A stretch of DNA of 64,000 nt from Flavobacteriaceae bacterium. GTDB lineage: Bacteria; Bacteroidota; Bacteroidia; Flavobacteriales; Flavobacteriaceae. The stretch lies in the NCBI GenBank assembly GCA_016649715.1, contig JAENXC010000010.1, forward strand, positions 62,001 to 126,000. The letters are read 5' to 3'. The notes under the pieces were generated by a model. The model had not been told where the DNA came from. It was given only the letters and a program-made list of their open reading frames with translations, and made no database searches. Below are positions 46,789 to 51,673 of this stretch, one piece after another. Position 1 is the stretch's first letter. Every line of letters begins with the position of its first letter. A program made the position numbers and the translations under genes.

Positions 46789-46820
46789 CGATTCATAGTT
46801 CCAGCAGTTTAGCGAAGATG

Positions 46821-47135
46821 CCAACAGAGGTTTCCATCGATCCGACTGAGGTTTCCATCGATTCAAAGTGGGTTTCCATCGACCCAAAATGGGTTTCCAT
46901 CGACCCGACTGAGGTTTCCACCGACCCGACTGAGCTTTCTGCCGATCCAACTAAACCTTCTACCGACCCGATTGAACTTTCTACGTACCCAACTGAATTT
47001 TCTATCGGCACGACTAAACCTTCTACCGACCCGACTGAACTTTCTATCAATCAAACAAAACTTTCTACCGACCTTACTGAGCTTTCTAAGGGTGGGAAAT
47101 CGCTATCTATGAGCCCGACTAAACTTTCTAACGTT
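46821..47135. repeat. fifteen 21-bp tandem repeats
   Basis: The unit is close to CCGACTGAGGTTTCCATCGAC and repeats 15 times without spacers. Units 1-5 read GTTTCC in the centre, while later units read CTTTCT, so the array shows a gradual change along its length. Because 21 is divisible by three, several frames stay open on both strands: plus frame heptads like PTEVSID from an ATG at 46818, and minus frame heptads like VGSMETS. Whether any of these is translated is unclear. Confidence 0.9.
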
Positions 47136-47185
47136 TGCGAGGAGTTTGGAGATTTACTGTTGTGGGTGCACGTTGCAAACGTGGG

Positions 47186-48091
47186 CTAGCGAGGTAAAAA
47201 CTGAATTTTTTTTGAATTTTTTTTCTTGATTAATTTAAAATCCGTTGGATTCCAATCCTCTAAGTCGGGTTGTTTTAGATCGCGACTAAAAAATAATATT
47301 TCTTTTCCTTTTTTGCTTGAATGTGTGGAATGATTAAATATATATTCTTTTCCTTGAAATGGTTGATATATTTCTTTTATAATTGGATGATTATCATAAG
47401 AAACTATCCAATGGATATTTTTTATTTTTTTTATTTTCGCCGCAACCTCTTTATGATCTTGATTATCATAATAATTCATATAAAGAGAAGAAGCTTTTAA
47501 ATAATATGGTGGGTCGAAATAAAAAATAGTGTTCGAATTTTGTGGATTATCAACGACTTTATCAATTAATTCCAGAGCATCCAAAGAATAAAGTTCAATA
47601 TCTTCTTTTCTTGATGAGATTAATTGAATTTTTTTAATTATTTCTTTTTTGTTGAAACGACAATCCAATTTATACTTCCCTAATTGTTCTTTTCCTCCGA
47701 TCACACCACCTTTTATTATTCCGTCTCTATTTGTTCTATTTAGGAACAAAGTGGAAAACCCCAAATCGAGTAAATCAGGCTTTTGTTTATTAGTCTGAAT
47801 TTTTTTTAAGCGAAGACGATTTTCAATTGTTATTTCAGTATCTTCTATTAATTGACACAATCTTTGTGAATCATATATAACTGAATGCCAAAAAGCGTAT
47901 ATCGAAAGATCTTTATCATTTATAGTAATTTTATTGACAAATCCTTCAAACAGTAAAAATAGCGCTACAGATGCACCACCTGCATATGGTTCAACATAAT
48001 GAGATGAAATATTATTGTCTATGCAAATTTTGGCTAGAAATGAAGAAAGTTTGTTTTTGCCTCCTGGATAACGTAATGGTGAATAAAACAT
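47186..48091 (-). CDS. DNA adenine methylase (Dam/D12 class N6-MTase)
   Basis: The 301-residue enzyme has the N-terminal SAM-binding motif LRYPGGKNKL, EPYAGGASVALFLL and the catalytic DPPYYLK (about residues 195-200). It transfers a methyl group to adenine N6 in a specific site, which is not predictable here. It is AT-rich, unlike the surrounding housekeeping genes, and sits next to a ParB-like protein (48149-49618) on the same strand, in an island. This suggests a restriction-modification or other defence unit, but a paired nuclease is not proven. Confidence 0.88.
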   Translation of the reverse strand: MFYSPLRYPGGKNKLSSFLAKICIDNNISSHYVEPYAGGASVALFLLFEGFVNKITINDKDLSIYAFWHSVIYDSQRLCQLIEDTEITIENRLRLKKIQTNKQKPDLLDLGFSTLFLNRTNRDGIIKGGVIGGKEQLGKYKLDCRFNKKEIIKKIQLISSRKEDIELYSLDALELIDKVVDNPQNSNTIFYFDPPYYLKASSLYMNYYDNQDHKEVAAKIKKIKNIHWIVSYDNHPIIKEIYQPFQGKEYIFNHSTHSSKKGKEILFFSRDLKQPDLEDWNPTDFKLIKKKNSKKIQFLPR

Positions 48092-49779: not shown

Positions 49780-51447
49780 TTATTTTCCATAAGCATCCGC
49801 ATGTACATTCTTCACAGCCCGTCCGCTAGGATCATTCATATTCTTAAAACTGGCATCCCATTCCAATGCAATAGGGCTGCTGCACGCCACAGATGGCACT
49901 GAAGGCACGCTGAGCGCGGCGGTGTCGCTGGGGTAGTGTTCGGCGAAAATGCTTCGGTAGTAAAACTCTTCCTTGCTGGAAGGAGTTTGCAGTGGGAACT
50001 TGTATTTGGCATTTGTTAGTTGTTCGTCGGTTACTTTTTCGTTTACCATTTCCTTTAAAGTGTCTATCCAACTGTAGCCCACGCCGTCGCTAAACTGTTC
50101 TTTTTGGCGCCACGCCACACTGGCGGGGAGCATATCTTCAAAGGCTTTGCGGAGTACCCATTTTTCCATGCGTTCCCCGTTAATCATTTTGTCCTGTGGG
50201 TTGATACGCATGGCCACGTCCATAAACTCTTTATCAAGAAAGGGAACGCGCCCTTCAATTCCCCAACTGGCGAGTGATTTGTTTGCGCGCAGGCAGTCGT
50301 ACATATGCAGTTTGTCCAGCTTGCGCACGGTTTCTTTGTGAAGTTCTTCGGCGTTGGGGGCGTTGTGGAAATAGAGATAGCCACCAAATATTTCATCGGA
50401 GCCTTCGCCGCTGAGCACCATTTTTATACCCATCGCTTTAATGGCGCGCGCCATTAAATACATGGGTGTGCTGGCGCGGATGGTGGTGATGTCATAGGTT
50501 TCCAGATGATAAATCACATCGCGGATGGCGTCAATGCCTTCTTGGATGGTGAATTTTATTTCGTGGTGAACTGTCTTTAAATGTTCCGCTACTTTTTGTG
50601 CGGCGGCCAGATCGGGGCTGCCCTCAAGACCGATGGCAAAGCTGTGTAGCTGTGGCCACCAAGCACCTTCGGTGTCTTCGCTCTCGATACGTTTTTCGGC
50701 ATACTTTTTTGCAATTGCTGAAGTGATACTACTATCCAATCCACCGGAGAGCAATACGCCGTAAGGCACGTCGCTCATCAGTTGGCGGTGTACGGCGGCT
50801 TCCAATGCCTTGCGGAGTTCGGCGATTTCGGTGGTATTGTTTTTTACGTTTTCGTACTCCATCCAATCGCGGGAGTACCAGCGTTTCAATTCGCCTTCGC
50901 GGCTGTCTAGATAATGGCCGGGAGGGAAGAGCTCAATCTTTGTGCAAATTCCTTCCAAAGCTTTTAATTCTGAAGCCACATAAAAAGTTCCGTTTTGGTC
51001 CCAACCGATATATAGAGGAATGATGCCCATATGGTCGCGGGCAATGAAGTAGTTGTCGTTTTTAATATCATAAAGTGCAAAGCCGAAGATGCCGTTCATT
51101 TCATCCAAAAACGAAGCGCCTTTTTCTCTGTATAAAGGAAGGATTACTTCGCAATCGCTTTTGGTTTGGAAATCATAGTTTTTGAATTGTTTCCGAAGCG
51201 CCATATGGTTATAGATTTCGCCATTGGCGGCCAAAACGAGATTGCCATCACTGCTGAAAAGCGGCTGCTTTCCAGAAGTTGGATCAACAATGGCGAGGCG
51301 TTCGTGCGCCATTATCGCTTTGTCGTTACTGAAAATTCCACTCCAGTCTGGGCCCCGGTGACGGATACATTTTGCCATTGACAATACCTGAAGTCTTAAG
51401 GCCTCCGCGGGCTCTTTGAGTTTGAATGCACATACAATTCCACACAT
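49780..51447 (-). CDS. asnB: asparagine synthase B (glutamine-hydrolysing)
   Basis: The 555-residue enzyme starts MCGIVCAFK, with Cys2 the glutaminase nucleophile once Met is removed. The N-terminal amidotransferase domain (about 1-200) contains RHRGPDWSG and ANGEIYNH. The synthetase domain has the PP-loop LLSGGLDSS (about 233-241) and GEGSDEIFGGY. It makes asparagine from aspartate, ATP and glutamine. Its leader carries an Asn-rich peptide and a terminator (see 51497-51596), pointing to transcription attenuation by asparagine supply. Confidence 0.96.
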   Translation of the reverse strand: MCGIVCAFKLKEPAEALRLQVLSMAKCIRHRGPDWSGIFSNDKAIMAHERLAIVDPTSGKQPLFSSDGNLVLAANGEIYNHMALRKQFKNYDFQTKSDCEVILPLYREKGASFLDEMNGIFGFALYDIKNDNYFIARDHMGIIPLYIGWDQNGTFYVASELKALEGICTKIELFPPGHYLDSREGELKRWYSRDWMEYENVKNNTTEIAELRKALEAAVHRQLMSDVPYGVLLSGGLDSSITSAIAKKYAEKRIESEDTEGAWWPQLHSFAIGLEGSPDLAAAQKVAEHLKTVHHEIKFTIQEGIDAIRDVIYHLETYDITTIRASTPMYLMARAIKAMGIKMVLSGEGSDEIFGGYLYFHNAPNAEELHKETVRKLDKLHMYDCLRANKSLASWGIEGRVPFLDKEFMDVAMRINPQDKMINGERMEKWVLRKAFEDMLPASVAWRQKEQFSDGVGYSWIDTLKEMVNEKVTDEQLTNAKYKFPLQTPSSKEEFYYRSIFAEHYPSDTAALSVPSVPSVACSSPIALEWDASFKNMNDPSGRAVKNVHADAYGK

Positions 51448-51496
51448 GATATTTGGTTATTGAGTTATTTGGTTATTGAGTTGTGAAAAAAAAAAA

Positions 51497-51525
51497 AGCC
51501 CGCCAGGTAAAAAACCTGACGGGCT
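51497..51525 (-). terminator. intrinsic terminator in the asnB leader (attenuator)
   Basis: On the minus strand AGCCCGTCAGGT and ACCTGGCGGGCT form a 12-bp stem with one G-U pair and a five-base loop, followed directly by about eleven T residues. It ends about 40 bases before the asnB ATG. In this position it can only block asnB itself, since the gene upstream has its own terminator at 51674. Confidence 0.9.
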
Positions 51526-51535
51526 GTATATCGCG

Positions 51536-51596
51536 ACAAGTTTTTGTTACGGCAACTGGTTATTATTATTTAGACTGAAATGTAACATACACTTGT
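51536..51596 (-). promoter_or_regulatory. stem enclosing the asnB leader peptide
   Basis: ACAAGTGTATGTTAC and GTAACAAAAACTTGT pair at both ends of this region (12 Watson-Crick pairs plus one of three central positions), enclosing a 31-base loop. The start codon lies in one arm and the stop codon in the other, so translation of the leader must open the stem. I do not see a perfect antiterminator that pairs with the terminator arm. Confidence 0.7.
51547..51588 (-). CDS. asnB leader peptide, 13 residues with NNNNQ
   Basis: The minus strand reads ATG TTA CAT TTC AGT followed by CTA, four Asn codons (AAT AAT AAT AAC), CAG, TTG, CCG and TAA, giving MLHFSLNNNNQLP. Four consecutive codons for the product amino acid, then glutamine (the amide donor of AsnB), just upstream of an intrinsic terminator and asnB, is the classical layout of a leader peptide for attenuation. 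It is far too short for normal gene finding. Confidence 0.82.
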   Translation of the reverse strand: MLHFSLNNNNQLP

Positions 51597-51673
51597 TTGT
51601 TTTTTTATTTGAATTGCTAATATAAAATAAATTTCGAAGCGAAACTATATCTTGATTAATTTAGATTAAAAAT

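Follow-up and report, generated by a model that had tools for sequence, protein, structure and literature searches.

A leader peptide and RNA switch that very probably let a marine flavobacterium and its relatives read asnB only when asparagine is short

Ribosome-mediated transcription attenuators of the trp, his, ilv, thr, leu and phe type are a known kind of regulatory element. In Firmicutes, asparagine genes are under T-box control, in which the charging of tRNA-Asn is sensed and transcription termination is controlled. For several amino-acid operons of Flavobacterium psychrophilum, control by leader-peptide attenuation has been proposed, and pheA and hisG are among the genes for which conserved 5′ elements are listed (PMC9723704). 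Tandem attenuators, with two leader open reading frames (ORFs) in series, are described for Salmonella mgtCBR (PMC3641672). As for asparagine, neither this amino acid nor Bacteroidetes is named in the main text of Naville and Gautheret 2010 (PMC2965389), the word asparagine occurs in a Listeria attenuator paper (PMC5864092), and searches of an open-access library turned up no title or opening of an abstract that pointed to a leader-peptide attenuator for asparagine.

The window considered here is a 64 kb stretch of DNA from a marine member of the Flavobacteriaceae. It carries asnB on the minus strand (49780-51447), whose product is identified as glutamine-hydrolysing asparagine synthase B by its NCBIfam match (928 bits, cut-off 499). 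Judged from sequence, the probability is about 0.93 that asnB is controlled through its leader by ribosome-mediated transcription attenuation, with charged tRNA-Asn as the signal. In this bacterium and its relatives, the leader and its RNA switch very probably allow asnB to be read only when asparagine is short. Calculation establishes the anatomy of the leader, its conservation, its mutually exclusive pairings and its ruler-like spacing.

The components of the leader all lie on the minus strand. The initial annotation had claimed an Asn-rich leader ORF of 13 codons directly upstream of asnB, and this ORF is confirmed at 51588-51547, where it reads MLHFSLNNNNQLP plus a stop codon and is kept in relatives. 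Codons 7-10 (51570-51559) are Asn, making the ORF rich in codons for the product of asnB. One base past the stop codon begins region 2, AAAAACTTG (51545-51537), which is the 5′ arm of an antiterminator; its 3′ arm is region 3, CAGGTTTTT (51518-51510), which overlaps the 5′ arm and the loop of the terminator. Both arms are supported by folds and alignment, and they form nine pairs including one G-U (-9.0 kcal/mol, z -2.9), although no perfect antiterminator had earlier been seen by eye. The intrinsic terminator hairpin, or 3:4 pairing (51525-51497; arms 51525-51514 and 51508-51497), stands between leader and asnB as had been claimed, with 12 pairs, 8 of them GC (-23.2 kcal/mol, z -7.5 by folding, with alignment support), and with a T run that reads 51497-51486. 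Since the antiterminator takes CAGGT of the terminator 5′ arm plus the loop, the two structures are mutually exclusive, which the folds bear out.

Region 1, CAAGT (51595-51591), is the partner of region 2, as judged from its pairing relative to shuffles and from folding. It forms the core of a stem that encloses the ORF (51596-51582 with 51550-51536) and had been described as 15 bases long. This stem stands in part: only 13 of its 15 positions are complementary by reading, it forms with 12 pairs alongside the terminator in the whole-leader fold of the window, and it is the 1:2 hairpin rather than the antiterminator. What relatives retain of it is chiefly the CAAGT segment, and some of them lack even that. 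The flavobacterial -7 promoter box has the consensus TAnnTTTG, to which a possible box, TATATTAG (51624-51617, minus strand), 36 nt ahead of the leader start, matches weakly at five of six positions. Transcription would start upstream of the leader, where this weak box is the only candidate. Between regions 2 and 3 lies a spacer (51536-51526; columns 87-103 of alignment A1), TCGCGATATA or TACCCTATA, which is well kept within groups of relatives.

The proposed mechanism depends on where the leading ribosome stands. When asparagine is ample, this ribosome would pass the Asn codons, reach the leader stop and cover region 2; region 3 would then pair with region 4, and RNA polymerase would terminate ahead of asnB. 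When asparagine is scarce, the ribosome would stall on an Asn codon and leave region 2 free to pair with region 3 during RNA synthesis, and the polymerase would continue into asnB. With no ribosome on the leader, region 1 could pair with region 2, which would favour termination after release or without translation. Stalling at low Asn-tRNA, termination and the response to asparagine are what we infer from the leader. The terminator is far more stable than the antiterminator, so the choice between them would have to be kinetic and not one of equilibrium.

The element is shared by a group of relatives. The closest named one, Aequorivita aurantiaca (AsnB 94% identical), has a leader with 10 Asn, MIRFRLNNNNNNNNNNELP, and a second Aequorivita genome has one with 6 Asn, MYFISLNNNNNNELP. 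Further named carriers include Luteirhabdus pelagi, Thermobacterium salinum, Planktosalinus lacus and Patiriisocius marinistellae, as well as MAGs named Marixanthomonas and Pukyongia. Homologous leaders were checked for loss of the Asn codons or of the terminator, and leader, antiterminator and terminator are kept in all 48 distinct leader-carrying asnB loci, window included (46 counted, two by eye). The 46 counted leaders have 3 to 10 Asn codons each and keep the frame. The leader motif matched 48 of 127 asnB-like starts, with two false matches in Aquimarina (L077, L082) and two leaders missed (L130, L158); all four are omitted from the counts of 46, and the last two are included among the 48 leaders of the AsnB tree. 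This tree has 125 distinct rows, picked by similarity to the window protein or by the covariance model described below, and omits two paralogue pieces (L002, L005). The leader is present in 48 rows and absent in 77, two of which (L031, with 7 nt upstream, and L053, with 174 nt) have too little DNA to judge absence. Leaderless rows come from Arenibacter, Maribacter, Lutibacter, Gelidibacter, Aquimarina, most named Flavobacterium and others; one MAG named Flavobacterium (L017) carries the leader. A single change on the tree suffices to account for its presence (support 90, quick method), and in more distant Flavobacteriaceae the whole element is absent.

A covariance model was built from 27 leaders and searched in 397 Flavobacteriaceae genomes. 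It matched 96 of them at E <= 0.01 and 40 at E <= 6.2e-8, with a gap in E values between 6.2e-8 and 1.3e-5. All 40 strong matches precede asnB (30 are L115-L144, eight are L155-L162, and genomes G042 and G263 correspond to L152 and L088), and since the model was trained on some of these loci, the matches there are not independent. Nine of the many weak matches below the gap were examined (E 1.3e-5 to 2.5e-3): eight are, by eye, terminator-like hairpins without an Asn leader, and the ninth (L173) is the leader of a different gene, asnA. The second-best match in the window genome (C42) is likewise a hairpin of terminator type; it follows some other gene and has no Asn leader. Across 296 genomes of the order, four matched at E <= 1e-4, of which G000 and G042 have known leaders and G532 and G596 have no asnB start in the stretch examined. 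By eye, no comparable Asn leader was seen at asnS of the window genome.

One alternative is that the terminator acts constitutively or is part of a gene for a small RNA or a small protein, that the Asn ORF is incidental, and that the asnB promoter lies after the terminator. A strong terminator close behind a short ORF would suit this explanation, and there would be room for a start site in the 38 nt that separate the T run from asnB. An incidental ORF, however, would not retain, in 40 of 46 leaders, an Asn run that ends three codons ahead of the stop with an antiterminator arm right after it. Apart from the Asn run and the C-terminal end, moreover, the peptide sequence is variable, which would not be expected of a functional small protein. 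We regard this alternative as very unlikely. In the remaining leaders, the distance from Asn run to stop is two codons in three, five in two and seven in one. A terminator lies within 170 nt upstream of asnB in 44 of 46 leader loci, compared to 2 of 75 others. The 64 kb window has three short ORFs with a run of at least four identical residues, and the asnB leader alone has a terminator in the next 70 nt; among 30 run-bearing ORFs from 10 Markov-simulated windows, two have one, and neither of these carries an Asn run. Elsewhere in the window, a degenerate repeat-rich stretch (46793-47189) is open on both strands, with STDPTELS-like and GSVES-like repeats, and adjoins a probable DNA adenine methylase gene (47186-48091, named from reading).

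The spacing of the leader matches what attenuation by a translating ribosome would require. A ribosome covers up to 12 nt past a stop codon (PMC4833913), and the footprint assumed here extends 12 bases after the first base of the A-site codon. With this assumed footprint, a ribosome positioned on the final Asn codon of the run falls short of region 2 by a median of 3 bases, and one that has reached the stop hides the full nine bases of region 2 in 43 of 46 leaders, so that the arm is free at the sensing codons and covered at the stop. By string comparison, a single base separates the stop codon from region 2 in 42 of 46 leaders. In seven of the 46, with the tails GNP or GNT, an additional Asn falls among the three codons ahead of the stop, and a ribosome stalled there would hide some of region 2. 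Of the 46 leaders, 45 end in a Pro or Thr codon, and 39 specifically in CCG, CCT or ACG (51552-51547 in the window, and relatives). Placed just ahead of the stop, such a codon may delay release and so keep region 2 covered for longer; its conservation would reflect either slow release or an RNA constraint.

Leaders were folded with and without a stalled ribosome, a comparison that the initial annotation had called for. In these folds, which ran up to the terminator loop and counted an antiterminator as at least 6 pairs, a ribosome stalled on either the first or the last Asn codon of the run lets the antiterminator form in 46 of 46 leaders, and one at the stop does so in 0 of 46; all RNA upstream of the ribosome edge was masked, so region 1 could not compete. 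In nascent leaders without a ribosome, before region 4 is made, 2:3 forms in 32 of 46 and 1:2 in 12 of 46, which leaves the guarding role of 1:2 unsure. Full-length leader RNA forms the terminator in 46 of 46, with region 2 paired upstream in 45 of 46. When spacers were shuffled, at least 7 pairs were reached in 922 of 1,840 cases, a test too permissive for pair counts to serve as proof of an antiterminator, while only 41 of 1,840 were as stable as the real structure. Together, the antiterminator, the stall folds and the kept leaders support the attenuation first proposed for this locus.

Conservation of the pairings was measured in alignment A1, which holds 27 of 31 loci (L001 is the window; L092, L097, L098 and L102 were omitted as copies or near-copies). 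In the terminator, 98.1% of 319 cells are paired and six pairs changed on both sides, and 0 of 500 shuffles did as well on either measure. In the antiterminator, 97.1% of 240 cells are paired, which 1 of 500 shuffles equalled, and sliding the arms out of register leaves 28-69% paired. Its covariation is thin, consisting of one pair in which A-U gives way to G-C in six sequences that are probably related to one another; the number of pairs changed on both sides was reached by 439 of 500 shuffles and the number of cells by 1 of 500. The 1:2 pairing score averages 12.3, compared to 8.0 in shuffles, and 17 of 27 leaders reach P <= 0.03; the other 10, which include L009, L013, L017, L018 and L088, do not. 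Region 1 ranges from CAAGT up to CAAGTTTT, and L099 keeps CAAGC opposite GCTTG.

A second alternative is that the leader is a riboswitch or T-box with a metabolite or tRNA as its direct ligand, and that the ORF is secondary. In favour of it, one group of relatives strongly conserves the spacer, often TCGCGATATA, for no evident reason, but it is replaced in other groups. Between 51300 and 51800, Rfam gave 24 matches at E <= 10, none of them at gathering score and none to a T-box covariance model; these were taken as chance. Eight sampled loci (three asnB, five asnA) had no Rfam family at gathering score except one tRNA gene. Moreover, Asn is kept through both of its codons. The 45 distinct leader ORFs contain 299 Asn codons (217 AAT, 82 AAC) and 10 Lys in total, which means that Asn and not A-richness is kept. 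Direct binding is therefore extremely unlikely as the primary function.

It might also be supposed that translation of the leader raises translation of asnB, by coupling or reinitiation, since leader genes near structural genes can act in this way (PMC4833913). This effect peaks at about 10-16 nt, and at 11-14 nt in Bacteroidetes, according to the same source, whereas in the 46 leaders the distance from leader stop to asnB start is 76-184 nt with the terminator between. Coupling is almost certainly not the explanation, and transcription attenuation remains the preferred reading.

A related arrangement exists at asnA, whose product, aspartate-ammonia ligase, is the other asparagine synthetase and is not known to be homologous to AsnB. 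Genomes with a match to this gene number 15 of 249 in the family, 14 of 295 in the class and 2 of 2 in a single genus, and the window genome has none; all six proteins tested scored above the TIGR00669 cut-off. Of 32 asnA loci read, two (L189, L194) are uninformative because the stretch does not start at the gene start. An Asn-rich leader with a terminator, unlike the asnB leader in sequence, precedes asnA in 9 of the 30 informative Bacteroidota loci (L173, L175, L176, L177, L180, L190, L191, L195, L205); L192 is doubtful, and 20 loci show no leader in the 300-400 nt read. Two complete Asn-leader units stand in series in L173, L175, L195 and L205, and these tandem loci come from Flavobacteriaceae and from a second family within the class. 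In L176 and L177, a second Asn ORF has no stop ahead of the second hairpin, so the usual attenuation logic does not fit. This second ORF, about 165-40 nt before the asnA match, encodes SPPPGGE or DPPPGGE, and the polyproline might matter.

With a ribosome at the last Asn run, 8-16 pairs form between the free stretch and the 5′ part of the terminator in 13 of 13 asnA units, and at most 3 form with it at the stop (nine loci; raw counts). L192 gives 5 and 6 pairs, and in L190 a long ORF runs into the terminator. The ends of the asnA ORFs, often RKAIV-like, encode the antiterminator arm, and the layout thus differs from that of asnB. Genome G241 has both synthetases, an asnB without a leader (L101) and an asnA with Asn-rich leaders (L176). 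It is likely, on this pattern, that Asn-sensing attenuation is recurrent in Bacteroidota, having arisen separately on asnA and asnB, and that the tandem asnA units, which would sense the same amino acid, make the switch tighter or steeper. On the evidence of asnA, evolution may have reached this solution a second time, with an unrelated enzyme.

Compared to the T-box of Firmicutes, the asnB leader is proposed likewise to sense tRNA-Asn charging and to control termination; the T-box binds tRNA directly, and none is among the Rfam matches at the asnB leader. The F. psychrophilum predictions concern the same family as the window, and their main text mentions neither asparagine nor asnB (PMC9723704). 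The asnA tandems resemble Salmonella mgtCBR in their serial arrangement, and differ in that both leaders carry the same amino acid, asparagine (PMC3641672). With the trp and his type, the asnB leader shares richness in codons for the product, exclusive 2:3 and 3:4 pairings, with 1:2 as a possible further alternative, an intrinsic terminator and, as inferred here, a response to ribosome position. If the attenuator is real, it is a very clean and easily testable one in Bacteroidota, and it would require ribosomes close behind RNA polymerase. Unlike in the trp and his type, region 2 begins one base after the stop and region 1 lies at the start codon; this spacing, with the Asn run three codons before the stop, offers a natural ruler for the flavobacterial ribosome footprint. 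Finally, in contrast to the trp, his, ilv, thr, leu and phe type, the asnB leader of Flavobacteriaceae would sense asparagine, which would thereby join the amino acids sensed by translating ribosomes.
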